DNA of 40,014 nt from Spirochaetia bacterium (GCA_029975555.1 JARKOY010000082.1:1-40014); one strand, 5' to 3'. Positions 2,315 through 15,652 are shown, numbered from the stretch's first letter. Notes: generated by a model not told the origin, from the letters alone. Program-made: numbers and translations.

Positions 2315-2386
2315 AAAACTACAACATAACGAGTGATGGGGCGATCTCGTGCCCCGTCACAGTACATTACGTGTGTAGGAGTAACT

Positions 2387-4510
2387 ATGAGTGAAGCCTT
2401 CGATCTCACCGAAAACCCCATATCTAATCTGTATGGAAGCAATTGTTTTTCCAATGCAGTGATGCGTGAACGTCTGCCCAAAAATGTGTACAAGGAAATT
2501 CTTGCGGTTCAGGCTGGAGAAAAAGAACTGACGCTGGAAGTCGCGGACGTAGTGGCCGCCTCGATGCGGGCGTGGGCCATGGAAAAGGGAGCCACTCATT
2601 ACACTCACTGGTTCCACCCCCTCACCGGCCTCACCGCCGAAAAGCACGACTCCTTCATCGCACCCACCTCGGACGGCAAAGTCCTCATGGAGTTCTCCGG
2701 CAAAGAGCTCATTAAGGGAGAGCCCGATGCATCGAGCTTCCCTTCTGGAGGGCTGCGGGCGACCTTCGAGGCCCGGGGTTACACAGCCTGGGATGTGACT
2801 AGCCCAGCCTTTCTAAAACAGGACCCCACCGGAACCACTCTGTGTATTCCTACCGCATTCATCAGTTACTACGGACAAGCGCTCGACAAAAAGGTGCCCC
2901 TGCTCCGCTCTATGGACGCGTTGAGTACACAGGCGATGAGGGTACTGCGAGCTCTTGGGAATACTACCTCCAAGCGGGTCACCACCACCGTGGGGCCTGA
3001 GCAGGAGTACTTCCTGGTGGACAAACAGTATTTTGACAAACGCCCGGACCTGCTTTTGACCGGCAGAACAGTCTTCGGCTCCATGCCCGCCAAGGGGCAG
3101 GAAATGGAAGATCATTACTTCGGAGCCCTTAAGGAGCGAGTCGCTGCTTTCATGCGGGAACTGAACATAGAGCTCTGGAAAATGGGTGTCGCCGCCAAGA
3201 CCCAACACAATGAGGTTGCACCAAACCAATTTGAAATAGCCCCCATTTTCAGCACCACCAACGTTGCGGTGGACGCAAACCAGTTGGTGATGGAGACGCT
3301 CAAGAAGGTCGCCCGTCGGCACGGCATGGAAGCCCTGCTCCATGAAAAACCCTTTGCGGGCGTCAATGGTTCGGGAAAGCACAACAACTGGTCCATGGCC
3401 ACCGACGATGGAATCAACCTCCTCGATCCTGGAGAAAATCCTGAGTCCAATGCCCGCTTCTTACTATTTACCGCCGCGATCATCGAAGCGGTAGACCGGT
3501 ATGCGCTGTTGCTCAGAGCCTCCACCGCAACCGCCGGCAACGATCATCGCCTAGGGGCCAACGAGGCGCCTCCCGCCATCGTCTCTGTCTTCCTGGGCAG
3601 CCAGCTCACGGAGATTTTTGACAACATCGCGGAAGGCAAGGCGTCCAACGGCATCGCCGGCGGAGAGAAAATTAGACTCGGCGTCACTTCTTTGCCCTCA
3701 CTCCCCAAGGACGTGTCGGACCGCAACCGAACCAGTCCCTTTGCGTTCACAGGAAATAAGTTCGAATTCCGCATGGTCGGTTCTTCCCAGTCCATCGCCA
3801 CGCCCAACACCTATCTCAATACGGCGGTAGCCCAAGTGCTCTCCGAATTTGCGGATAAACTTGAAAAAGCCTCCGACAAAAATGCGGCGATCCAGGCAAT
3901 CATCAAGGAATCATACGGCAAACATCGCCGGGTGGTATTCAACGGCAACAACTACTCGGAGGAATGGGTGCGAGAAGCGGAACGCCGAGGACTGCCAAAT
4001 GTTCGGGCCACCGTCGACGCGCTGCCGGTGCTCATCCAGAAAGAGACGATCGCCCTCTTCGAGGCCCACAAGGTCTTGTCCCGCGAAGAACAGGAGAGCC
4101 GTTACCACATCTATCTGGAACGATATTCCAAGCAGATCAACATCGAAGCCGGAGTGATGATCGAGATGGCCCGCCGTTCGATCTTCCCCGCAGTCTCTTC
4201 CTACGCCAGCTCCCTCGCCAGAGATGCTGCGGCCTTGGCGGCCCTCGGAGCGACCAGCGCTCCTCAGGAAAAACGCGCAAAGAAAATTGCAGAGCTCGCC
4301 AGCGAGTTGTACGAGGAAACAGAAAAGCTTGAAAAAGTGCTGGGGGATGCCCAGGCCATAGAGGACACCTTTACCCAGGCCAAGGCCTACCGCGAGAAGG
4401 TAGTGCCACAGATGGCCAGCCTACGGAGTAAGGCTGATGCGCTGGAAAAACTGGTGGCAAAGGAGGTCTGGCCCTTCCCAGGCTATGAAGAATTGCTGTT
4501 CAAGCTATAA
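2387..4510 (+). CDS. glnN: Glutamine synthetase type III
   Basis: A 707-residue cytoplasmic glutamine synthetase that makes glutamine from glutamate, ammonia and ATP. Its length and motifs are those of the GSIII class (about 700 residues) and not the roughly 450-residue GSI. Visible family blocks include SSFPSGGLRATFEARGY near residue 110, the catalytic TVGPEQEYF, HNEVAPNQFEIAP, GSGKHNNWS and RLGANEAPPAI. The C-terminal part after about residue 600 is a helical GSIII extension. The start at 2387 is chosen because TAGGAG lies six bases upstream; the frame is open further upstream without such a site. A sigma-54 promoter and candidate activator sites precede it, indicating nitrogen-responsive expression, and a strong terminator follows. 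Confidence 0.95.
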   Translation: MSEAFDLTENPISNLYGSNCFSNAVMRERLPKNVYKEILAVQAGEKELTLEVADVVAASMRAWAMEKGATHYTHWFHPLTGLTAEKHDSFIAPTSDGKVLMEFSGKELIKGEPDASSFPSGGLRATFEARGYTAWDVTSPAFLKQDPTGTTLCIPTAFISYYGQALDKKVPLLRSMDALSTQAMRVLRALGNTTSKRVTTTVGPEQEYFLVDKQYFDKRPDLLLTGRTVFGSMPAKGQEMEDHYFGALKERVAAFMRELNIELWKMGVAAKTQHNEVAPNQFEIAPIFSTTNVAVDANQLVMETLKKVARRHGMEALLHEKPFAGVNGSGKHNNWSMATDDGINLLDPGENPESNARFLLFTAAIIEAVDRYALLLRASTATAGNDHRLGANEAPPAIVSVFLGSQLTEIFDNIAEGKASNGIAGGEKIRLGVTSLPSLPKDVSDRNRTSPFAFTGNKFEFRMVGSSQSIATPNTYLNTAVAQVLSEFADKLEKASDKNAAIQAIIKESYGKHRRVVFNGNNYSEEWVREAERRGLPNVRATVDALPVLIQKETIALFEAHKVLSREEQESRYHIYLERYSKQINIEAGVMIEMARRSIFPAVSSYASSLARDAAALAALGATSAPQEKRAKKIAELASELYEETEKLEKVLGDAQAIEDTFTQAKAYREKVVPQMASLRSKADALEKLVAKEVWPFPGYEELLFKL

Positions 4511-4542
4511 ATCAATTCAAAAACGTCAGCCTCCTAATAATA

Positions 4543-4585
4543 GGCCCTTGTCTTCAGCGTCGGCCGGGACAAGGGCCTTCTTTTT
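4543..4585 (+). terminator. Rho-independent terminator of glnN
   Basis: A perfect 10-bp stem, GGCCCTTGTC (4543-4552) with GACAAGGGCC (4568-4577), is closed by a 15-base loop and followed by TTCTTTTT. It lies 32 bases after the glnN stop. The interval from here to the fprA stop codon holds nothing I recognise. Confidence 0.9.
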
Positions 4586-4709
4586 AGGCTGATCGACAGC
4601 TTGAGTCTGGCCTACATGGGGGTGCCACACAGTGTTGCGTAGTGCGGCCCATTCTGACGTTCCGCATGGTTCCAGCGAGGGTGCTATACATTCTGTATTA
4701 CCCTGTAAA

Positions 4710-5924
4710 TTACCGCACGTGGCTCAACACCGAACCGCCAACAGCATCTGCAAGCGCCAACAATGCATCCACCAGGGATGGCTTGAGGGAAGAGGAGATG
4801 ACAAGCGGCGGGGCGAGCAGTTCCATGCCCTTCATCTCGCCGATCAGCTTCCTCATGACGGTGTGGGCGGCAGGGGCCCAGGAGCCATTGCCGATTAAGG
4901 CCACCTTTCTATTCTGCAGATTCAATACGGCCATGTCTCGCAGAAGCGCCTCCATGCCGAAATAGAGCCCGGCGTTGTAGGTCGGGGCAGCAAAGACTAG
5001 GTGGCTGTATTTGAACGCATCCGCGATGATATAGGATGCGTGGGTCTTGGAGACGTCGTACACCCGCATATCCTCTACACCTTTTTCGGCGAGATGGTTG
5101 GCGACGACGGCAACCGCGTTCTCCGTATTGCCGTACATGGAGGCATAGGCCAGCACGACACCCGTCTTTTCTGGCACGTATCGGCTCCAAAGATCGTACT
5201 TGTTCAGAATATAATCCAGATTTTTGCGCCAGATCGGGCCGTGCAGCGGACAGATCATCCGCACCTCAAGCCCCGACACCTTCTTCAGCGCCGACTGCAC
5301 TTGTGCACCGTATCTGCCCACGATATTCGTGTAATAGCGGCGCGCTTCATCGAGGAAAAGGCTTTCGAAATCGAGTTCGTCGCTGAAAAGGTTCCCAGAG
5401 AGCGCGCCGAATGCCCCGAACGCATCGGCAGTGAAGAGGATGCCTTCTCGCACTTCATAGGTGAACATCACCTCGGGCCAGTGCACCATGGGAGCAAAAT
5501 AAAAGCGCAGCGTGTGCCGGCCTAGAGGAAGTTCGTCGCCTTCCCGCACCTCGTGGATCTTGGCCTCGACATCGAAGTTGTAGAACTGACGGATCATCTG
5601 GAAGGTCTTGGAGTTGCCCACGATCTTCATCCTCGGAAACCGTCTGCAGAGCTCCTCGATATTGGCGCAGTGATCCGGCTCCATGTGGTTGACGACGAGA
5701 TAGTCGACGGCCCTGCCCTGGAGCACATGCTCGATGTTCTCGAAAAACTGCCTGCTGATCGAAAAATCGACCGTATCGAGCAGCGCGACCTTCTCGTCCA
5801 TAATCAGATATGAATTGTAGGCGATGCCGTTCGGCAGAGGAAACATGTTCTCGAACAGCGCCAGCCTTCGATCGTTACCTCCTACCCAGAACATGTGGGG
5901 AGTTATGTGCCTCGTACAATACAT
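4710..5924 (-). CDS. fprA: Flavodiiron protein (A-type flavoprotein, O2/NO reductase)
   Basis: A 404-residue flavodiiron protein of anaerobes that reduces O2 to water and/or NO to N2O in the cytoplasm with electrons from rubredoxin or a similar donor. The N-terminal metallo-beta-lactamase domain (about 1-250) keeps the diiron ligands H80-x-E82-x-D84-H85, the His of MVHWPE, the Asp of FTADAFG and the His of CPLHGP. A flavodoxin domain follows (about 255-400) with the FMN loop YASMYGNTENA. The start at 5924 (MYCTRHIT, typical of FprA) is favoured over an in-frame ATG seven codons upstream because AGGAAAGGA (5931-5939) lies six bases before it. It is transcribed away from the DUF2207/radical SAM operon. 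No rubredoxin gene is adjacent. Confidence 0.93.
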   Translation of the reverse strand: MYCTRHITPHMFWVGGNDRRLALFENMFPLPNGIAYNSYLIMDEKVALLDTVDFSISRQFFENIEHVLQGRAVDYLVVNHMEPDHCANIEELCRRFPRMKIVGNSKTFQMIRQFYNFDVEAKIHEVREGDELPLGRHTLRFYFAPMVHWPEVMFTYEVREGILFTADAFGAFGALSGNLFSDELDFESLFLDEARRYYTNIVGRYGAQVQSALKKVSGLEVRMICPLHGPIWRKNLDYILNKYDLWSRYVPEKTGVVLAYASMYGNTENAVAVVANHLAEKGVEDMRVYDVSKTHASYIIADAFKYSHLVFAAPTYNAGLYFGMEALLRDMAVLNLQNRKVALIGNGSWAPAAHTVMRKLIGEMKGMELLAPPLVISSSLKPSLVDALLALADAVGGSVLSHVR

Positions 5925-6215
5925 ACCATTTCCTTTCCTACGCATACGTCGCCCCGTGAGGCAACGTCATACATCAACGACTTAGGAATACCTAACTTAT
6001 ATGTAAAAATATACTGTTTTTAGGACGGGGTACAAAGCAAAACTACGCAAGACCCTCGAGGACGCCATCCGGGTACAGGTCAAAAACTTACAAAGCGGAC
6101 TCTACGACGTGCAAGCCCACGTCGAATCGCACATGGGACTACAGTCTTGTACTTTATCTTGAGGGGAACAAATACTACAATAAAAGTATTAGTCCCGGAC
6201 AAGGTCGGAGCGAAG
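5925..6215. other. Divergent intergenic region, fprA / DUF2207 operon
   Basis: About 290 bases between divergent genes. A small dyad TTAGG-AATA-CCTAA (5982-5995) lies 58 bases upstream of fprA and could be an operator. A second weak inverted repeat, AATACT/AGTATT, lies near 6173-6190. A stop-bounded open frame without a start codon runs to about 6163 and is helical in predicted character; it may be a gene remnant but resembles nothing known to me. No clear -35/-10 pair was identified. Confidence 0.4.
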
Positions 6216-6893
6216 GTGTCGAACTTGCAGAACAACGAGAGTCACCAAAGTAGGTCTCAAATGCAGAATCTGATAACGAAGTTCCTTCGGTCTCCTCTGG
6301 CCATTGGCGTCGTGTGTGGCAATGCCCTCTTGGCAGTGGGTGCGGCGCTCGCCGGCATTGCGCCTGTGCTTGTTGTCGCGCCTCTCTTTGTGTTCGTGAC
6401 GGGAGGAGAGCTCGCCATGATACTGCTCTCGAAGTCGGGAGCCAAGGCAATTCTTGCTGAACAAAAGCGAGAGCGGGATGAACACGATGCCGAGTGCCTT
6501 GAAGAGACGGCCCGCCAGCGAAAGCGCCTTGCCATGCTCCGCATCGAAAATCCTGAAGTGAAGGCAGCCATAGACCGGCTCGTGTTTGTGGCCGGCGTGT
6601 ACCTTGAATCCTGCGCAAAGGGGAATGCAAGGAATCCTATTGTGGAGGATGCTGTGCAGAATGCAGCCAAAACAGTGGATGGATATCTCCACCTGATCGA
6701 TGCCGGCCGGATCGGCTCGCGCATCGAAAGCAAAGCTCCCACGGGGCCACAGGACCTCGAACAGAAAGCAATCCTCTCCCTCGATGGATCAACTCGCCTC
6801 ATCGCAGAACAGCTTGCCCTGCCCTTTGGAGGCCTCGAAGGAAATCATACGGTGCTCGATGCAGTGGATGGACGACAGGAGCTGGAAAAATGA
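6216..6893 (+). CDS. Small membrane protein, first gene of the DUF2207/radical SAM operon
   Basis: About 225 residues, family not recognised. Two or three hydrophobic segments near residues 25-75 are followed by a highly charged stretch (lysine, arginine and glutamate rich, probably helical or coiled coil) and a soluble C-terminal half. It therefore looks like a membrane-anchored cytoplasmic protein. The start is uncertain. GTG 6216 has GGAG five bases upstream, ATG 6261 has only a weak site, and the frame is open from TTG 6147. The stop codon overlaps the next ATG by four bases (ATGA at 6890-6893), so it is translationally coupled to the DUF2207-like gene and is probably part of the same complex or pathway. 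Function unknown. Confidence 0.75.
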   Translation: MSNLQNNESHQSRSQMQNLITKFLRSPLAIGVVCGNALLAVGAALAGIAPVLVVAPLFVFVTGGELAMILLSKSGAKAILAEQKRERDEHDAECLEETARQRKRLAMLRIENPEVKAAIDRLVFVAGVYLESCAKGNARNPIVEDAVQNAAKTVDGYLHLIDAGRIGSRIESKAPTGPQDLEQKAILSLDGSTRLIAEQLALPFGGLEGNHTVLDAVDGRQELEK

Positions 6894-8593
6894 AACGGAG
6901 CAGATTTTGGCTGGTCATGCTGGTGTTGTTCGGATGGTCGGGACAGGCGCTCGCTGCGCTCGAAGCTCGGGCAGAATCTGTAGAAATATTCCTCACGCTG
7001 CACAGCGACGGCAAGGCGGTGGTGCAGCACTCCATCGTCTGGAACGTGAGCTCAGGCACTATGGGCGGTTTTTATTTCCAAGGAGAAAAGGCTCCCCTGG
7101 CATGGGACCGACAGCGCTGCTGGGCCGATCTGCCGGACGGAACGCGCAGCCCTCTCGACATCAAAGAGGTGGAAGACAAATGGGATATTCTCCTCGCCCA
7201 AGGCAAGCGCACGTTGGGCACCTCGACTTGGGTGCTCACCTACGGCGCCGATCTTGCCGCGGGGAAGATGGTGGGGCTCACCGAACGATCCGGCGGCGAA
7301 AAGCTCTTCTATTTCCACTGGGCTCCGCCTGAGTGGGACCAGCCGCTTGGGCACCGGGCCGTCACGGTCGTCTTCCCCATCGAGGTAAATGCGGGCGAAG
7401 CGGGGGATTCTCGATCCGAACGACTCTCGCAGCTTGGGTTCGCCACAGAAGAGTTCGTGAATAAGGAGAACAAGATCGACTGGTACGCGGCACGCGGTTC
7501 TGACGACAAAAACTATCTCGCGCTGCGGTTCTACCAAAAGGCGCCCGCCGCGCACGCCGCTCAGAATATCCAATTCTATCTGTCGGCCGAAAATGTGGCC
7601 CTCGCATTCTCTCCCCTCTTCGATGCCTTGGCAGCCAGGCAGACTGGCTCGGCGAACCCGTTAGGAGCCCTTCAATCCGAAGCACAGCCCGGCACTCCGG
7701 GCGCCGTCGGCGTAGTGCGCCCCGGTATTGGGCCAACATGGCAGCGCACGCCCCTTCTCGCCTTATTTCTGTGCGGCGGCATCGCCGCGCTCGGCGTGTT
7801 TCTCTACCGGAAGAAAATAGCAGGGTATCCGAAGGCCATGGCAAAGGCGGAGGGCATTGCATGGGCCGGCGATTCGTGGACGCCTCCCAGGCTGAGCGAA
7901 GGAACATATGCAGTGCCCGGCAAGGTGGCCGAGGACCTGCACCCCGTCGAAGTCGCGCTGCTGTTCGAACTGCCCCTGCCCCGCGTCGTGGCCGTCATGA
8001 TCAAGATCCTCGAGGACGAGGGCGTCGTCCGCGTCGTGCAGGAAGCCCCTCTGCGGCTAGAGATACTTAAAGCGGAGAGCGTAGACGAGTACGGCGACGC
8101 CTTCCTGGCAGCCTTCGATGCGGAGGGCTGGGTACTCTCGGGATGCATGGCCGATTTCTTCGAAGCAGCCCTCAAAAAGCTTCAAGAAAAGATATGGGAC
8201 TGCGACATCGAGGCCACCAAGGCGTACTACAGGAAAAAGCTTGCAGAAGCAGAGGCAGGAGGGGCTGCCGAGACTGCAGTTGCAGCGGGCACAGCGGCGA
8301 TGCCGAGCTACAGCTGCTGGACATCCTTCATCTACGTGTACTCGCATCCGCACTACTACGGGAATCTCGGTCTTCCTAAAGAGTTTTCAGGAACATATGC
8401 CTCGTTCATGGCTTCTTCGGCCTGTTTTTCGGGGTGTTTCTCGCCGAAGAATCTCTCGGGCACCGCCGGCGCCTGCTATTCGGCCTGCCACAATGCCTGT
8501 CACAGCGCGTGCCACCAGGCCTGTCACAGCGCCTGTCATTCCGCGTGTCACTCGGCCTGCCACAGCGCATGTGTGTCTGGAGGACCACATTGA
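6890..8593 (+). CDS. DUF2207-like membrane protein with C-terminal Cys/His tetrapeptide repeats
   Basis: A 567-residue protein. Residues 1-23 form a signal peptide ending in ALA. Residues about 25-280 form an exported beta-rich domain of DUF2207 type (the pattern beginning VEIFLTLHSDGKAVVQHSI). One transmembrane segment lies at about 286-306. A cytoplasmic region follows (about 307-480), including the winged-helix-like stretch usual after the membrane segment in this family. A cysteine-containing linker leads to nine tandem tetrapeptides (528-563) of the form Ala-Cys-His-Ser, then GGPH. DUF2207 proteins often end in Gly/Ser-rich low complexity; a Cys/His tail is unusual. With this topology the tail is cytoplasmic, on the same side as the radical SAM enzyme encoded next. 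It overlaps both neighbouring genes by four bases. The tail is inferred to be the enzyme's substrate or a metal-binding element. Confidence 0.85.
   Translation: MKRSRFWLVMLVLFGWSGQALAALEARAESVEIFLTLHSDGKAVVQHSIVWNVSSGTMGGFYFQGEKAPLAWDRQRCWADLPDGTRSPLDIKEVEDKWDILLAQGKRTLGTSTWVLTYGADLAAGKMVGLTERSGGEKLFYFHWAPPEWDQPLGHRAVTVVFPIEVNAGEAGDSRSERLSQLGFATEEFVNKENKIDWYAARGSDDKNYLALRFYQKAPAAHAAQNIQFYLSAENVALAFSPLFDALAARQTGSANPLGALQSEAQPGTPGAVGVVRPGIGPTWQRTPLLALFLCGGIAALGVFLYRKKIAGYPKAMAKAEGIAWAGDSWTPPRLSEGTYAVPGKVAEDLHPVEVALLFELPLPRVVAVMIKILEDEGVVRVVQEAPLRLEILKAESVDEYGDAFLAAFDAEGWVLSGCMADFFEAALKKLQEKIWDCDIEATKAYYRKKLAEAEAGGAAETAVAAGTAAMPSYSCWTSFIYVYSHPHYYGNLGLPKEFSGTYASFMASSACFSGCFSPKNLSGTAGACYSACHNACHSACHQACHSACHSACHSACHSACVSGGPH
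8471..8578 (+). repeat. Nine 12-bp codon repeats encoding ACHS-type tetrapeptides
   Basis: The units translate as ACYS, ACHN, ACHS, ACHQ, four ACHS and ACVS, giving nine cysteines at every fourth residue (529 to 561) and seven histidines each directly after a cysteine. The codons vary between units (gcc/gcg/gca, tgc/tgt, cac/cat, agc/tcc/tcg). The repeat is therefore conserved as protein and is not a recent slippage tract. Confidence 0.95.
8579..8584 (+). promoter_or_regulatory. Ribosome site fixing a TTG start for the radical SAM gene
   Basis: GGAGGA lies inside the last codons of the DUF2207-like gene, five bases before TTG 8590 and 17 before the in-frame ATG 8602. The spacing selects TTG 8590. 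This gives a TTGA overlap with the upstream stop, matching the ATGA overlaps at the other two junctions of the operon. Confidence 0.7.
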
Positions 8594-10080
8594 GTGCGCA
8601 CATGCACGCCGTAAACAGGCCCACGACCACGCCTCGGGAGGCCGTCGGTCCATTGGACGCGCACATGCGCGCCAGCTCTTCGATGCCGCCATCAGCCGAT
8701 CTACCCAACCTCTCCTGGGTCGACGATTTTTGGGCTCAGGCAGGAGAGCACATCTTCTCCAGAGAGGAGGACGGCGTCCTCATCCTGCCGCCGAACCGCG
8801 TCTACAAGGTCAACGCGACGGGCGCAAGGCTCATCGCCTACCTCAGGCGCGGCGGTTCGATGAGGGCACTGAAGCTTCCTTCGGCCGAAGCTGTGCGCGA
8901 CACGGCGCTCTTTTTTGGGGACCTCGCTGCGCTCTACCGCGGTGAGGCGCCAGACAACGGCACGGTGTCTTCGGAGCCCTTCTCCTTCTCGTTTACGCGG
9001 CTGCCGGTGCTGGGCGAAATCGCGCTGACCTACCGCTGCAACAACGCGTGCCGTTTCTGCTACGCGGGCTGTAATCTGGCAGAGGACCGCCTTCCCGATG
9101 CCGAGCACTCCGCACAATCGTCGGCCTCTGGGTGCAGCGCCGCACCGACCGACCTCTCCGCCTCGGCGCCTCTTTTCCGACATCCCGAGCGCTCTACCGA
9201 GGACTACCGGCGCATCATCGACACCTTTGCGGACGAGGCTAAAATTCCATTTTTCTCGTTCACGGGAGGAGAACCCACACTGCGGGATGACCTCGAAGCG
9301 CTCGTCGAGCATGCTCGCCGGCGCAGGCTCATCACCAACCTCGTCACGAACGGCACACTGATCGACGAAGCGCGCGCCGCCGGGCTCAAAAAAGCGGGAC
9401 TCGGGAGCGCTCAGGTCTCCATCGAGGGGCCAGATGAGGAAACGCACGATTTCCTCACAGGCAGGATCGGCGCCTTCCGCGAGACGCTCGAAGGAATTGC
9501 CGCGCTGCGGAAAGCTGGCATTCCCACGCAGACCAACACGACCATCACGCGCGGAAACCTTCGGCTCATCCACCGCATGCCCGCCTTTCTTGCGTCGCTA
9601 GGAATCCACCGTTTTGCCATGAACCTCTTCATCCCCACCATCCCAGGAAAAGAAGCCGATCGGCTCTTCGTCTCCTACGAAGAGATCGGCCCCTACGTCG
9701 ACTCGGTGTCCAAGGCGGCGCGCGCGCTCGACATGACTTTTTTCTGGTACAGCCCCACACCTTTCTGCACCTACAACCCCCTCGCGCGCGGCCACGGCAA
9801 CAAGAGTTGCGCCGCAGCGGACGGACTCATCTCGGTCGCGCCCGACGGCGCGGTGTTGCCCTGCTCCTCCTGGGATGAACCGATCGGCAACCTTCTTGAG
9901 CGGCCTTTCGATGCAGTATGGTTTTCGGGGCGCGCTCGATTCTATAAAGAGAAACACTTCGCCCCTGCACAATGCCGTACCTGCGGCAGCTTTATCGCCT
10001 GTCAGGGGGCCTGCCCGCTCTACTGGCGTTACACGCACACCGAACCATGCGGATTCGGAAAAAGCAAGGAGCTTCTATGA
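8590..10080 (+). CDS. Radical SAM/SPASM peptide-modifying enzyme with PqqD-like N-terminal domain
   Basis: About 496 residues. Residues about 54-100 resemble a PqqD-type peptide-recognition domain (pattern GVLILPPNRVYKVNATGARL). The radical SAM core carries the cluster motif C150-x3-C154-x2-C157, a GGEP motif at 226-229 and a Cys-containing Ser/Ala-rich insertion near 163-195. The C-terminal SPASM-like region has eight cysteines (393, 407, 425, 462, 465, 471, 475, 487), enough for two auxiliary iron-sulfur clusters. Enzymes with this layout modify ribosomal peptides, for example by forming thioether or carbon-carbon crosslinks. No separate small precursor gene is seen in the operon, so the repeat tail of the preceding protein is the obvious candidate substrate. 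Start TTG 8590 is chosen from the ribosome site; ATG 8602 is the alternative. The product chemistry is unknown. Confidence 0.9.
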   Translation: MSAHMHAVNRPTTTPREAVGPLDAHMRASSSMPPSADLPNLSWVDDFWAQAGEHIFSREEDGVLILPPNRVYKVNATGARLIAYLRRGGSMRALKLPSAEAVRDTALFFGDLAALYRGEAPDNGTVSSEPFSFSFTRLPVLGEIALTYRCNNACRFCYAGCNLAEDRLPDAEHSAQSSASGCSAAPTDLSASAPLFRHPERSTEDYRRIIDTFADEAKIPFFSFTGGEPTLRDDLEALVEHARRRRLITNLVTNGTLIDEARAAGLKKAGLGSAQVSIEGPDEETHDFLTGRIGAFRETLEGIAALRKAGIPTQTNTTITRGNLRLIHRMPAFLASLGIHRFAMNLFIPTIPGKEADRLFVSYEEIGPYVDSVSKAARALDMTFFWYSPTPFCTYNPLARGHGNKSCAAADGLISVAPDGAVLPCSSWDEPIGNLLERPFDAVWFSGRARFYKEKHFAPAQCRTCGSFIACQGACPLYWRYTHTEPCGFGKSKELL

Positions 10081-10970
10081 ATACAGCCGTCATTCGCTAT
10101 CGGATTCCCGGCATGGGAACCTTTTCTCGCTTGCTCGTCTTCGGGACCTGCAGCCTTGGCGGTATTCTGCTGCAGGTCTTCTGGGGAGGCGCAGGCATTG
10201 TCATTGGTACACTGCTTCTCGTGCTGCCGCTCTTTTTTCTGTCCGCAAAGCCATGGACCAATAAGCCTAAGGACATCGGTGAGGAAGACTGGCAGCCCGT
10301 CACAGATGCGGAGCTCGACCGCCTTGCCGACGCGTTCAGCGCCACTAGACATATACAGCTTCCACTGTGGTATCGCCCTGGTTTCGGCATTCCCTTTACG
10401 GTGGGCCTCGCGGTTCTGGCCGTAGTGTTCGGAACCGCGCTCACACTCCCTGGGCTCCTCGCCACGGACGCGCTCATCCTGCTGTGGCCCGCCCTCAACT
10501 TCCTCAAAATACGGCTGTGGATTCCCAAGGAATTCGAGATGGTCATGCGCGCACTGCAGGCCGCCCGTTCCGTACCCCTGCCTCCGGACATCGTCTGCAC
10601 GCCCTACCTGCGGCTCGACCGCGACGTGCAAGGTCTTCGGATACCCGAGAATGCCAGACTCATGCTCGAACCACGGCGGAAACCCGACGATCTTATAGGC
10701 GTCCAGATGCAGGTGGCAATTAACAAAGGGCCGAACGGACAAGTGCCGTACCTCTACGCGGTAGTACTCACGCGCGGGCAAGGAGCGACGTGGAAAAAGG
10801 CCAGCAGCTTCAGCGCCTCAGGGTACGCGGTCGAACCCGGCGGCGATGCTTCCTACGGCACCGTCGTCATACGCCAGCACACCGAAGGCGGGGGCTACCA
10901 CACCACCGCTCAGGACTGCGCGAGGCTGGTGGAAACGGTCATAACTGTGCTTAACAAAATTACGTATTGA
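10077..10970 (+). CDS. Membrane protein, last gene of the DUF2207/radical SAM operon
   Basis: About 297 residues, family not recognised. Four hydrophobic segments are visible: about 15-35 and 38-56, then 105-122 and 125-145. A charged loop separates the pairs and a soluble C-terminal domain of about 150 residues follows. The start at ATG 10077 overlaps the radical SAM stop by four bases and has AAGGAG five bases upstream; the frame is open further upstream but lacks such a site. No cysteine-rich region is present. Its position suggests a membrane partner of the DUF2207-like protein. No terminator with a T-run was found before the convergent regulator gene. Confidence 0.75.
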   Translation: MNTAVIRYRIPGMGTFSRLLVFGTCSLGGILLQVFWGGAGIVIGTLLLVLPLFFLSAKPWTNKPKDIGEEDWQPVTDAELDRLADAFSATRHIQLPLWYRPGFGIPFTVGLAVLAVVFGTALTLPGLLATDALILLWPALNFLKIRLWIPKEFEMVMRALQAARSVPLPPDIVCTPYLRLDRDVQGLRIPENARLMLEPRRKPDDLIGVQMQVAINKGPNGQVPYLYAVVLTRGQGATWKKASSFSASGYAVEPGGDASYGTVVIRQHTEGGGYHTTAQDCARLVETVITVLNKITY

Positions 10971-11007: not shown

Positions 11008-11997
11008 CTACAATCTGTCGATAAACCCTGTTTCCAGAAAAATAGTCGTACCAATCTTTTTATCCTCACTCTCGTTCTGCATCATGCGAATAAGATTATC
11101 TATCGCCATAAAACCAATTTCGACAGTGGGCTGTGTGATGACAGAAATCGGGTATTTAAGGTAATCGAGCCATTTGTTGTCATCGTAAGTCACAATTTTT
11201 ATCTGCTGAGGAATACTGATACCCATTTCTTCCAAGCTTCCTATGAGCTGGTAACATATATCCGAAGTCGCGCAGAGGACCCCGTCCGGTTTTGTATCCT
11301 CGATGAATTTGCAGATCAGCTTGTTCGAATCTTCCTGTTTATAGTTCAATGTCAGAACATTGGTCGGGGTGTTTGCGAAATTCTTTTGAACATAAAAGCT
11401 GTACCCAAGCAAACGCTGCTGACATGTGTAGACCGTCTCCGGATAACTTATGAAGCCTATATTTTTGCAGCCCTTTGTCGCAAGATAATGAGTTCCATTA
11501 TAGCCACTCTCAAAATTATTTATTCCCACAAAAATCTTATCGATGCCTTCATATTTTCTATCCACAAATACTATAGGAATGGTCGCGGTCAAAATTTCTT
11601 TAGGGCATTTTCGGGAATCCACAGGAGCGATGATTATCCCCCCCACATTTTTTTCCAAAATGCTACGGACGTTCAATTTCTCGAGTTCAGCATCGTTTTC
11701 CGAATCGCAGAGCAGAATAGAAAAACCCTGTTCAGAGGCATATGTCTCTATGGCCTTGATGACGGAAATATAATAATCTTCCAAGATGTTTGCCACAATG
11801 ACGCCAATAAATCTCGTCGTAGAATGAAGAGATTTTGGTTTTTTTTTCTCATAACTGAGTTCTTCCATTATTTTAAGAATATACTCGCGCGTTTCACGTT
11901 TGACATAGCGGGTTTTGTTTATGACATGCGAAACCGTCGTAATCGATACACCTGCTTTTTGCGCAATATCAATAAGCCTGACAGGTTTGTTTTTCAA
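11008..11997 (-). CDS. LacI family transcriptional regulator
   Basis: A 329-residue sugar-responsive repressor. A LacI helix-turn-helix occupies residues 1-25 (RLIDIAQKAGVSITTVSHVIN), followed by the hinge and a periplasmic-binding-protein-like effector domain from about residue 60 to the end. The start is taken as TTG 11997, because AGGAGG-like GGAGGA (12004-12009) lies six bases before it and the N-terminus then fits the family; an in-frame ATG six codons upstream would lie within the ribosome site. It is the last gene of a minus-strand block with the sugar ABC genes and probably controls them and the divergent dehydrogenase. The base composition is AT-richer than the flanking operons. Confidence 0.92.
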   Translation of the reverse strand: MKNKPVRLIDIAQKAGVSITTVSHVINKTRYVKRETREYILKIMEELSYEKKKPKSLHSTTRFIGVIVANILEDYYISVIKAIETYASEQGFSILLCDSENDAELEKLNVRSILEKNVGGIIIAPVDSRKCPKEILTATIPIVFVDRKYEGIDKIFVGINNFESGYNGTHYLATKGCKNIGFISYPETVYTCQQRLLGYSFYVQKNFANTPTNVLTLNYKQEDSNKLICKFIEDTKPDGVLCATSDICYQLIGSLEEMGISIPQQIKIVTYDDNKWLDYLKYPISVITQPTVEIGFMAIDNLIRMMQNESEDKKIGTTIFLETGFIDRL

Positions 11998-12091
11998 TCC
12001 TATTCCTCCATGCACAGCGCAGCTAGGTTCGATTTACGGACAAGCCCATCATCGACTTTATCTTTCGAATGCCCCTATGTCAATCAATTGC

Positions 12092-13075
12092 CTATTTGGA
12101 CACTGCTTTGGCAAAACGTCTACTTCGCCTGTTCTTAGTCGAAATGTCGTACATCACTGCGAGCGCGATGATCGCTCCTCTCACGATTTGCTGCATATAC
12201 GAATTCACGCTCGCAAGGTTCATAATGTTGTTGAGAAAGCCAACAATAAGCGCTCCAACAACGGTACCACCCGCAGTTCCGAGGCCGCCAGAGAAACTCG
12301 TTCCTCCAATGATCGAGGAAGTAAGGGCCTGAAATTCATAGTTTATGCCGCCATTGGGCAAACCGGCATTGACTCTCGACATGAAGAGTACACCCGCAAT
12401 GCCCACAATCACTCCGTTGAGGATAAAGGCCAATACTTTGGTCTGATTGACTGCTATCCCTGAGGCTTTCGCCGCTTCCTGGTTGCCTCCAATCGCATAG
12501 AGCGAACGCCCAAATCTTGTATGGTTCAAAATGTACCATGTGAGGACGAAGAACCCCACTAAAAAGAAAATGGGAATAGGCACTGGGCCGACAGAGCCCT
12601 GACCAAGAACCGTATATCCGCCTATCTGATAAATGTTTTGCCCTTTAGAGAACAAAAGGGCAGACCCCCTCGCCATCTCCTGCATCGCCAGCGTCGCGAT
12701 AAAAGCCGGCACGGAAAATCTCGTAACGATGACCGCATTGATCAGGTTGCACAGCACGGCAATGGCTATGGCCACGATTATGGCCAAGGGCATGGACCCC
12801 GTCGCTTTGTAGCTTGCAACGGAAAGCAGCCCGGACAGCGCAAGAACCGAACCGGAGGACAAGTCGAGGAGCCCGCATATGATCAGCATTGTCTCGCCAA
12901 ACGCCAGTATCGTGGTGACTGAAATCTGACGCGCCACGTTGGATATGTTTTGGGCTGAGAAAAAATTGCTATTCACCAATGAACTAATTACTATCAACGC
13001 GATAAGCACTAAATAAATACTATAGCGTCGAGTAAGGCTGGACCAAGAAATATGCTGTCTTGAATTCTCTTTCAT
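12092..13075 (-). CDS. Ribose-type sugar ABC transporter permease
   Basis: A 327-residue inner-membrane permease of the RbsC/XylH family (BPD_transp_2 fold) with eight to ten hydrophobic helices. Family marks include ETMLIICGLLDLSSGSVLA near residues 60-78 and FVLTWYILNHTRFGRSLYAIGGN near 175-197. The start codon overlaps the stop of the ATPase gene by four bases (13072-13075), giving the order binding protein, ATPase, permease, regulator. With the divergent polyol dehydrogenase, the substrate may be a polyol or pentose; specificity cannot be read from the permease. Confidence 0.92.
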   Translation of the reverse strand: MKENSRQHISWSSLTRRYSIYLVLIALIVISSLVNSNFFSAQNISNVARQISVTTILAFGETMLIICGLLDLSSGSVLALSGLLSVASYKATGSMPLAIIVAIAIAVLCNLINAVIVTRFSVPAFIATLAMQEMARGSALLFSKGQNIYQIGGYTVLGQGSVGPVPIPIFFLVGFFVLTWYILNHTRFGRSLYAIGGNQEAAKASGIAVNQTKVLAFILNGVIVGIAGVLFMSRVNAGLPNGGINYEFQALTSSIIGGTSFSGGLGTAGGTVVGALIVGFLNNIMNLASVNSYMQQIVRGAIIALAVMYDISTKNRRSRRFAKAVSK

Positions 13076-14580
13076 TGTCGTACCCCCGTCATTTTCTCAT
13101 ATCCTGTAGCCAGTCTCATAATTTTTTCTTGACTGAATTCCTCCCTCTGAAGTTCACCGGCAATTTCTCCTTTGCATATGACATATATCCTGTCGCACAT
13201 TCCGATCAGTTCGGGCAGTTCAGAAGAAACCATGACCAGAGCCTTTCCTTCCGCTGCAAGATCTCCCATGAGTTTGTAAATTTCGTATTTTGCCCCGACA
13301 TCAATACCTCTTGTAGGCTCATCGAGAATAAGGACTTGAGATTTACAAAGAACCCATTTGCCAAGGACCACTTTCTGCTGGTTACCACCACTTAGCTCTT
13401 CTACTGTTGTGGAAAGAGAAGGGGCTTTTACCGCCATTCTTGAACAGATTTGATTAATAGTATCATTTTCCACCGCGCTGTGCAGATATCCCCCATAAAA
13501 AAAGAGCCTAAGGTTCGCGAGCCCCACATTTTCCCGGATATTGCGCACAGGGATTATTCCAAAGCGACGCCTATCCTCGGACAGCATGGCTATTCCGTAT
13601 TTGATCGCATCTCTTGGATCATGGATGGAAACCTTTTTGCCCAAAATTGCTATTTCTCCTGATGTATACGGATCCAATCCAAAAATAGCGCGCATGATTT
13701 CTGTACGCCCCGAGCCCATAAGCCCGGCGAATCCCACGATTTCGCCTTTTCTTACAAAGAAATCAATGTTTTTGAAGGCCTTTTCAGAAGAAAGTCCTTT
13801 AACAGCCAAAGCCACTTCCCCAACCGAGACTTGCCGCTTGGGGAAATTGTTCTCCAGCTTTCTGCCCACCATGAGGGAGATAACCTCATCGATGGTAAAA
13901 GCATCGCGTGGCCTGGTATCGATCACTTTCCCGTCGCGCAGCACTGAAATGTCGTCAGCAATGCGGAATATCTCTTCCATTTTATGAGAGATGTATATTA
14001 TGCTCTTTCCTCTTGCTTTCAAATCTTCAATCTTATCGAATAATCGAGCGACCTCGCGTTCCGAAATGGCAGAGGTGGGCTCGTCCATAATAATGATACC
14101 CGCATCGATTGAAATTGCCTTCAATATCTCGAGCATTTGAATGTCGGACACCGACAGATCTTTCATTTTCATTGTCGGAGAATACGGCAAATTTTCCTGT
14201 TCCAGAAGCTCGAGAGTATGGGCACGGATGGCTTTCCAATCAACGGAGCCTTGTTTCATGGGCCATCTACCGCAAAAGAGGCTCTCTTCCACCGTCATTT
14301 CGGGGATATAGTTTAGCTCTTGAAAGATCATCGAAATCCCAAGCGCCCTCGCCTGTATTGGATTCCGAATATGCACCTTTTTCCCTTCTACAAATATCTC
14401 TCCCTCGTCCGGTTGATACACGCCGTCAATAATCTTCATTAAAGTAGATTTGCCAGCACCATTTTCTCCACAAAGCACAAGCACAGAACCTTTTCTGACT
14501 TTCAGACTCACATTGTCGAGCGCACGTACACCAGGAAAAGATTTACTTATATTCCTAACTTCTAGTCTGCAGGAATCCAT
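13072..14580 (-). CDS. Ribose-type sugar ABC transporter ATP-binding protein (double NBD)
   Basis: A 502-residue RbsA/MglA-type protein with two nucleotide-binding domains. The first has Walker [10 protein letters not shown], a weak signature (LSVSDIQ) and Walker B IIIMDEPTS. The second has the usual altered Walker A GLMGSGRTE, a full LSGGNQQK signature and [12 protein letters not shown]. The start is placed at ATG 14580 (MDSCRLEVRN), which has AGAGG six bases upstream; two in-frame ATGs further upstream lack one. It powers the permease at 12092 with the binding protein at 14669. Confidence 0.92.
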   Translation of the reverse strand: MDSCRLEVRNISKSFPGVRALDNVSLKVRKGSVLVLCGENGAGKSTLMKIIDGVYQPDEGEIFVEGKKVHIRNPIQARALGISMIFQELNYIPEMTVEESLFCGRWPMKQGSVDWKAIRAHTLELLEQENLPYSPTMKMKDLSVSDIQMLEILKAISIDAGIIIMDEPTSAISEREVARLFDKIEDLKARGKSIIYISHKMEEIFRIADDISVLRDGKVIDTRPRDAFTIDEVISLMVGRKLENNFPKRQVSVGEVALAVKGLSSEKAFKNIDFFVRKGEIVGFAGLMGSGRTEIMRAIFGLDPYTSGEIAILGKKVSIHDPRDAIKYGIAMLSEDRRRFGIIPVRNIRENVGLANLRLFFYGGYLHSAVENDTINQICSRMAVKAPSLSTTVEELSGGNQQKVVLGKWVLCKSQVLILDEPTRGIDVGAKYEIYKLMGDLAAEGKALVMVSSELPELIGMCDRIYVICKGEIAGELQREEFSQEKIMRLATGYEKMTGVRQ

Positions 14581-14611
14581 GCACGACCTCTGGATCATCA
14601 AATAAGATAAA

Positions 14612-14645
14612 AGCATGCCTCGAGCACAAATGCTCTCAGCATGCT
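14612..14645 (-). terminator. Intercistronic hairpin after the first sugar-binding-protein gene
   Basis: Nested stems AGCATGC/GCATGCT (14612-14618 with 14639-14645) and GAGCA/TGCTC (14622-14626 with 14631-14635) surround a four-base loop. Read on the minus strand the structure is followed by TTTATCTTATTT, a moderate T-rich tract. It lies between the binding-protein and ATPase genes, so partial termination or mRNA 3'-end protection would raise binding-protein output. Confidence 0.7.
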
Positions 14646-14668
14646 CGTTGTTGCTTCAAGTGAATATT

Positions 14669-15613
14669 TTATTTTAATGCTCCGGCTTTTTTGTGGATAT
14701 CGATGAGCATATTTACATTATCTTTTGTAATGAGCGGGCAATCAATATCGACATCAATCTGTTTGGCCTTTCCTGTCAGAAGCTTATTGGTGGTATCGAG
14801 GATCTTCGAGGCAAGCTCGTACGCGTTCTGGAAGCTTGTGGCAGTCAAGAGGCCGGCTTTAATCAGCAAGGCCGCTTCGGCGGTGCCATCGACACCATAG
14901 GCAAGAATGCCCTTATATGCAGGATTGTTTTTCACGACTTCAAGAGCACCGGCCGCCATATTGTCGTTCATCGAGATGATCGCATCGATTTTCGGATTCG
15001 CCTGGACCCAGTCTTCCATATAATTCATGGCTTCATCCTTATTCCAGTGTGCAATCTGTTCTCCGACGATCTTCACATCTTTGCGCTTATCGAAAAATTC
15101 CTTTTGCCAGCTCTGACGGCGGGCATCGGCGTGGAAGTTGCCGGAAGGACCGTTGAGCACGACGACTTTTGCGTTCTGCGGCACCTGTTTGAGGGCCAAA
15201 CGGGCGTTGACTGCAGCCTGCTCATAAGGATCGGCGTCTACTGACGACGCACCCTTAATGCCAGCGATTCGAGCATTGGTAGTGATAGCGATGATTCCCG
15301 CAGCAACGATCTTCTCGACAAAAGGCCGCTGCGACTCGCCATTGTTCGGCTGGACGATGATTGCGTCGTATTTATTGGTAATTGCATTCTCAATAAGAGA
15401 ATTTTCGATATCATCGCTCGCCTGACCATCGAAGACCTTCAGACTGATGTTCGGGTACTTCTTGGCTTCCTCTACAATGGAATTCGCCAGCCACGCTGCA
15501 AACGAATCCCCTTGCGCACGGGCAATATATGCCACCTTGTACACCTTGCCCTGAGCGAAGGCCACACCCGACACCAGAGCCACCAACAATAGCATTACGG
15601 CTATTTTTTTCAT
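14669..15613 (-). CDS. Sugar ABC transporter periplasmic substrate-binding protein
   Basis: A 314-residue exported binding protein of the ribose/galactose class (Peripla_BP_4). The signal peptide MKKIAVMLLLVALVSGVAFA ends near residue 20. The mature protein has two Rossmann-like lobes, with the family patterns NSLIENAITNKYDAIIVQPNN and AIISMNDNMAAGALE. The start at 15613 has GGAGGAGG five bases upstream; an ATG five codons earlier overlaps that site and is rejected. It is the first gene of the minus-strand sugar operon, with its own promoter and a large inverted repeat in the leader. The substrate is not determined, but a polyol or pentose is plausible from the neighbouring dehydrogenase. Confidence 0.93.
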   Translation of the reverse strand: MKKIAVMLLLVALVSGVAFAQGKVYKVAYIARAQGDSFAAWLANSIVEEAKKYPNISLKVFDGQASDDIENSLIENAITNKYDAIIVQPNNGESQRPFVEKIVAAGIIAITTNARIAGIKGASSVDADPYEQAAVNARLALKQVPQNAKVVVLNGPSGNFHADARRQSWQKEFFDKRKDVKIVGEQIAHWNKDEAMNYMEDWVQANPKIDAIISMNDNMAAGALEVVKNNPAYKGILAYGVDGTAEAALLIKAGLLTATSFQNAYELASKILDTTNKLLTGKAKQIDVDIDCPLITKDNVNMLIDIHKKAGALK

Positions 15614-15652
15614 ATCCGCCTCCTCCATTCTCCTTCCTTATGGATAATGACC

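Follow-up and report, generated by a model that had tools for sequence, protein, structure and literature searches.

A candidate radical SAM system whose proposed target is a cysteine-rich tail on a conserved membrane protein

Does the radical S-adenosylmethionine (SAM) enzyme of a four-gene spirochaetal cassette act on a repeat tail that is built into the membrane protein encoded next to it? The cassette is an operon on the plus strand at 6261-10970 of a 40,014-nucleotide (nt) stretch from Spirochaetia bacterium (GCA_029975555.1 JARKOY010000082.1:1-40014; hereafter the window), which is contig 155 of a draft genome whose nearest named relatives are Treponema and Spirochaetaceae metagenome-assembled genomes (MAGs). 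It comprises open reading frame (ORF) 1, ORF2, the gene of the radical SAM/SPASM enzyme and ORF4, and ORF2 encodes the tail-bearing protein. An initial annotation, made from the sequence alone, had proposed that this tail is modified by the enzyme. The pairing of the two is supported by their linkage and by the matching of tail and enzyme types, from which we infer the physical modification; we put at roughly four in five the probability that the cassette is a substrate-enzyme pair, in which the cysteines of the tail are repeatedly modified and the tail stays attached to the membrane protein.

Conservation of the tail and its linkage to the enzyme

ORF2 (6890..8593, plus strand) encodes a 567-amino-acid (aa) DUF2207/TIGR04222-like membrane protein, the proposed substrate, whose C-terminal tail (8471..8590, plus strand) reads ACYS-ACHN-ACHS-ACHQ-ACHS-ACHS-ACHS-ACHS-ACVS-GGPH. 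What had been described as a nine-unit Ala-Cys-His-Ser tail thus consists of nine AC units followed by GGPH, only five of the units being exactly ACHS. When the last 40 residues were compared with those of six close orthologues, 0 nonsynonymous and 110 synonymous codon differences were counted, versus 24 and 101, respectively, in the preceding 40 residues of the same proteins. Spirochaetes, planctomycetes and many other phyla have almost the same tail letter for letter, and in Asgard archaea it can still be recognised. Because of this near-constant spelling across phyla, and of the 0 versus 24 nonsynonymous differences, the tail cannot be put down to chance and is under strong protein-level constraint while its codons vary. 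Thirteen less closely related members of the order, with an overall identity of 44-52%, show 2-5 changes in it, and most of the invariant columns in an alignment of 38 proteins (23-59% identical to the window ORF2) fall within the tail. From one ACH unit of the window to the next, 1-2 of the nine A-C-H nt change, always synonymously, which rules out a recent duplication of the repeat at the DNA level. Two variants were distinguished: type A tails have mostly 8-10 cysteines and end in ACVSGGxH/R, and type B tails have 10-13 and end in ACVSxF, or in Thorarchaeota in ACVSGGFR.

Approximately 85,000 species genomes were scanned with a DNA pattern of three ACH units that required no particular neighbour, yielding at least 115 stretches. 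Among the matches listed, to which the counts in this paragraph refer, at least 89 are genuine tails, all of them C-terminal on the same membrane protein, and they come from more than 20 bacterial phyla as well as Asgard and Thermoproteota MAGs. Antisense and out-of-frame matches (in Streptomyces, Lachnospiraceae and others) were dropped as chance; the other non-tail matches amount to one different small protein in Pseudomonas. The enzyme gene is adjacent to the tail gene in 83 of 86 evaluable cases. It was found in the same stretch in 80, mostly touching, with the two genes divergent at a distance of about 0.5 kb in Thorarchaeota, and was placed next to the tail by other evidence in three more: L076 (via L239), L103 (overlapping contig ends, with a 101 bp overlap between L103 and its enzyme contig) and L156 (position on the same contig). 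The 86 leave out L095 (at a contig end), L145 (a cut piece) and L120, which lies at a 100-N scaffold gap and whose genome has its enzyme at another gap. In the three non-adjacent cases, L056, L165 and L166, each genome encodes the enzyme elsewhere. Tails commonly standing without a radical SAM neighbour had been named at the outset as the result that would speak against the pairing; instead, the enzyme is nearly always adjacent. As many of the genomes are related and do not count as independent events, the spread over more than 20 phyla, assigned by record titles, is a better measure of this linkage than the number of genomes.

Presence and absence agree with these counts. Among 393 Spirochaetota genomes, the tail pattern and the enzyme (E<1e-60) both occur in the same 22 and neither occurs in the remaining 371, and the tail pattern was present in nine of ten enzyme-bearing Asgard-phylum genomes checked. 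Two tail proteins accompany one enzyme in L272 and in the genome that contains L056 and L063, so that a single enzyme appears to serve both, as expected for action in trans; the ORF2-ORF4 pairs are duplicated there (L272:3049-9985, L056, L063), and the genome or locus has just one radical SAM gene.

It may be argued that tail and enzyme are mere passengers of one operon and never meet, since they usually share an operon and co-inheritance could explain why they occur together. We regard this as very improbable: both are still present where their genes are unlinked or divergent (L165, L166, G722 and Thorarchaeota), and a change of enzyme group brings a change of tail on a protein body that stays the same, as described in the following section.

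Tail type and enzyme group

A second group of enzymes, scoring about half as high, was found in Chloroflexota, Asgard and Myxococcota genomes. These sister enzymes adjoin the same membrane body (E 1e-6 to 1e-25 with a body-only profile, one truncated copy being unmatched), which here ends in CACACACACACAGGGR or CACACAGCACACAGGGR, a tail of the CACACA..GGGR type. Mean identity between the ACHS and CACA enzyme groups is 30%. When 152 enzymes were placed in a tree, the 103 that have an ACHS neighbour all fell into one clade (support 0.80) and the 30 that have a CACA neighbour all fell outside it, with none crossed. Four more enzymes of the ACHS clade have no full tail ORF in their stretch; three of them lie at contig or stretch edges, and for the fourth the tail is 8.5 kb away. 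The ACHS clade is nested in the sister group with moderate support, and the CACA group is not necessarily monophyletic. Tail type thus follows enzyme clade: enzyme and tail have changed together on a constant body, and this is the best evidence that the two touch.

The CACACA(G)CACACAGGGR tails form an apparently undescribed class, represented by L207-L218 (Chloroflexota), L241-L263 and L274 (Asgard phylum) and L262 (Myxococcota). Many of the Chloroflexota loci have an additional, more distant radical SAM gene.

The enzyme of the window (8602..10080, plus strand) has 492 aa, with an N-terminal PqqD-like domain of the kind that serves as recognition element (RRE) for ribosomally synthesised and post-translationally modified peptides (RiPPs). 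Its start is most likely the ATG at 8602, 8 nt past the ORF2 stop; a longer ORF opening with GTG at 8434 would overlap the tail and was judged unlikely. The radical SAM core (9025..9549; PF04055, E 5e-27) carries the CX3CX2C motif as C146, C150 and C153, invariant in 50 members. The SPASM region (9766..10014) is matched by PF13186 in 50 of 50 family members; the eight SPASM cysteines already counted in the window enzyme are present, and seven of them (C389, 403, 421, 458, 461, 467 and 471) are invariant in 50 relatives. The PqqD-like region is placed approximately at 8719..8991, PF05402 being matched by 20 of the 50 members (best E 6.6e-11). The features of RRE-dependent radical SAM/SPASM maturases are thus found together, namely core, SPASM, PqqD (at the family level) and a linked Cys-rich candidate substrate, and judged by its profiles the family bears the hallmarks of a peptide maturase. 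At another place in the window's own genome, five clustered radical SAM genes were also seen (G000:C124:313-11313), two of them distantly similar to the cassette enzyme.

The closest solved structures by profile are SkfB (E 3e-34, the top PDB match) and PqqE (3e-28), and most of the others, including two that we take to be SuiB and CteB, are peptide-modifying SPASM enzymes. SkfB is a thioether-forming maturase, and this best-scoring relative argues for thioether chemistry over the other reactions that the tail might undergo as a substrate: epimerisation, oxidation of cysteine to formylglycine or another aldehyde, and Cys-His or C-C crosslinking. Such chemistry is a tentative alternative, which we rate as somewhat short of an even chance; being a sub-case of the substrate reading, it shares part of the confidence given to that reading. 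SPASM enzymes are known for several of these reactions, the PDB matches include anaerobic sulfatase maturases, and the alternating CACACA pattern would suit chemistry at every second residue.

A different explanation is that the tail works unmodified, as a metal- or haem-binding module or a thiol buffer, and that the enzyme, for instance, matures ORF4 or makes a cofactor bound by the tail. Nearly every unit offers a cysteine and a histidine, both well suited to bind metal, CHSACH holds the CX3CH spacing, and the enzyme does score against AhbD (116.7 bits) and NirJ2 (107.5 bits) of the haem pathway, though far under their cut-offs of 500. The sister CACACA tails, however, have no histidine, covalent haem attachment is not generally expected in the cytoplasm, and the tail type tracks the enzyme clade. 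ORF4 (10077..10970, plus strand), a 297-aa membrane protein, accompanies the enzyme in type A (ACVSGGxH) loci of all phyla, and none was seen beside type B or CACA loci. Its presence with type A only makes it an accessory part, and its absence from the other loci means that it cannot be the general substrate. We therefore consider an unmodified tail unlikely.

The membrane protein and the gene neighbourhood

By prediction and in an AlphaFold model, ORF2 consists of a signal peptide, a beta domain, one membrane helix, a helical domain, a low-confidence stretch and the tail. The beta domain, placed outside the cytoplasm (residues 24-238; 6959..7603), has a predicted local distance difference test (pLDDT) score mostly above 90. 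It was aligned by VIA-align with yeast OST1 chain 6ezn_A (Z 15.5, root-mean-square deviation 2.8, 184 residues aligned) and with the N-domain of M1 aminopeptidase (Z 13), and is accordingly modelled with a fold like that of ribophorin I (OST1) and M1 aminopeptidase N-domains. The single membrane helix is predicted at residues 287-305 (7748..7804), the modelled helix spanning 288-321, and is followed by a predicted cytoplasmic helix/strand domain (approximately residues 342-465; 7913..8284), located by the model and by the region that matches TIGR04222 in type B relatives.

The description of ORF2 as DUF2207-like applies to its relatives, 10 of 38 of which match the family at E<0.01; the window protein itself, at 19.7 bits, stays below the gathering cut-off of 24.4 (PF09972). 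TIGR04222 gave no match to the window protein, and the best of the individually scanned relatives reached 33.1 bits, under the cut-off of 43. The DUF2207 protein SMU.243 of S. mutans, for which a role in stress tolerance is reported, likewise has an outer N-domain and a large inner C-terminal part, in its case with a Gly/Ser-rich stretch (PMC10457818). This literature places the C-terminal part of DUF2207 proteins inside. In 26 of the 33 relatives in which the two counts differ, more Lys/Arg follow the last hydrophobic stretch than precede it, a rough measure because in some of them the stretch in question belongs to the inner domain as an amphipathic helix. Signal peptide, single helix and positive-inside rule fit a cytoplasmic tail in most relatives, and the topology that had been deduced from the first two features probably applies.

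ORF1 (6261..6893, plus strand) encodes a 210-aa membrane protein with a predicted transmembrane segment. Its start is most likely the ATG at 6261, although TTG 6147 is also possible, the ORF being open from there. It has no Pfam or NCBIfam family and adjoins the cassette mainly in Spirochaetota loci (39 loci). No convincing Pfam family was found for ORF4 either, so that both proteins remain unrecognised as first stated, and a PDB fold search with the ORF4 model (pLDDT 90) gave no significant match. The cassette lies where the initial annotation had placed it, with small coordinate corrections such as the ORF1 start. Its four genes were said to overlap; two junctions do, ORF1/ORF2 and enzyme/ORF4 (start ATG 10077) both being ATGA overlaps, whereas ORF2 and the enzyme gene are separated by the gap mentioned above.

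The flanks are ordinary: a type III glutamine synthetase and a flavodiiron-like protein upstream (2333-5945), and a LacI-type regulator and a sugar-type ABC transporter downstream (11008-15628). Neither is retained next to the cassette in other families. RluA-, DUF5312-, PgeF- and OmpA-like genes, named by eye, lie upstream in several spirochaetes and are absent in other phyla, and were not counted as cassette parts. A plasmid search gave no match.

Proposed modification and its relation to known systems

In the proposed mechanism, ORF2 would be anchored in the membrane, the beta domain facing outwards and both the helical domain and the tail reaching into the cytoplasm. The enzyme would bind it there, probably via the PqqD-like recognition domain, and the SPASM clusters would support repeated radical chemistry along the tail, with about one event per A-C unit. 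The product would most likely be a thioether ladder, in which each cysteine is joined to a carbon of a nearby residue. Alanine is the best guess for the acceptor because it and cysteine are the sole residues common to the ACHS and CACA repeats; a Cys-to-Ala thioether is suggested with low confidence. Apart from ORF4, no other gene recurs in the cassette across phyla, and since neither a protease nor an exporter recurs, the product most likely remains attached to the protein. The modified tail would then serve the membrane protein as an integral part that binds metal, is redox-active or lends rigidity, and no peptide would be released.

Several points weigh against the substrate reading. Linkage cannot prove catalysis, and ACHS repeats could bind metal unmodified. 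The PqqD match of the window enzyme is sub-threshold (E 0.024), so that the PqqD-like domain first assigned to this enzyme is borne out in other family members and is weak here. In the stretches retrieved for the sister-type enzymes L254 and L258 there is no such tail, and G784, a genome with an ACHS-type enzyme, gave no pattern match and only a fragment of the body. The alanine guess, finally, rests on two tail types.

The classical traits of a RiPP (small precursor, protease and export) are not those of this system, whose proposed substrate is the 567-aa membrane protein. The ACGX system (rSAM TIGR04340) similarly joins a radical SAM/SPASM enzyme to tandem four-residue A-C-x-x repeats, but its partner is a separate repeat peptide, whereas the repeats described here contain histidine and terminate a large conserved membrane protein. 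At 77.7 bits the enzyme stays below the cut-off of 400, and the repeats are ACH[S/N/D/Q], with no ACGX tandem (TIGR04340/TIGR04341). TIGR04117, a Cys-Xaa-Xaa-Xaa repeat radical SAM target, shares a cysteine at every fourth residue and a radical SAM partner; this 98-position model, which lacks a membrane body, matches ORF2 relatives through the repeats only (2 of 38 proteins, best E 2.9e-4), the highest score among those scanned individually being 15.7 bits (cut-off 50). SkfB, SuiB, CteB and PapB are likewise radical SAM/SPASM peptide maturases, and their substrates are small released peptide precursors. Against the PapB family the enzyme scores 56.9 bits (cut-off 340). PapB links Cys to the beta-carbon of Asp in CX3D motifs, forming six thioethers, and is a precedent for crosslinks in tandem Cys-X3 motifs (PMC9413430).

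The membrane body itself has a parallel in TIGR04222 proteins with Cys-rich tails encoded beside MNIO (DUF692) enzymes, which have been proposed to be tail-modified bona fide proteins; their tails are Gly/Ser-rich, irregular and predicted to be periplasmic, and the enzyme is missing in a third of the genomes (PMC12452194). The body is related (10 of 38 members at E<0.01) and ends in a Cys-rich tail, but here the enzyme is of the radical SAM class, the repeats are near-invariant and predicted to be cytoplasmic, and the linkage is near-complete. Pfam and NCBIfam searches, covering the four cassette proteins and three neighbours, detected no MNIO. The system appears to combine the ACGX and CXXX repeat-peptide ideas with the MNIO-TIGR04222 tailed proteins, and by profile score belongs to neither; its breadth and conservation are unusual. 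A literature search, which left most subscription journals outside, found no ACHSACH string in this sense and no pairing of DUF2207 with a radical SAM enzyme. In Pseudomonas mucoides (L105:857-7467), a 124-aa protein whose N-terminus is hydrophobic and which NCBIfam does not name ends in YCHSACHGACHGACHGARGWR and is followed by three divergent radical SAM genes, apparently a separate ACHx radical SAM system.

Taken together, the tail likely carries a widespread and undescribed protein modification. We consider it reasonably probable that this is a permanently anchored bacterial and archaeal protein whose Cys/His or Cys/Ala tail is made by the radical SAM enzyme into a multi-thioether (or similar) prosthetic element, the ACHS and CACA designs marking two enzyme groups, and that it represents an old protein modification and no peptide natural product. 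Most of what is known of radical SAM peptide maturases comes from peptides that are secreted or excised, whereas here a single conserved protein is the proposed target. The family offers a natural experiment, in that the same protein body occurs with two enzyme groups and two tail codes, and the occurrence of ORF2-type proteins in Asgard archaea may bear on the origin of ribophorin I. A tail that is nearly identical over so many phyla points to a basic cellular role.

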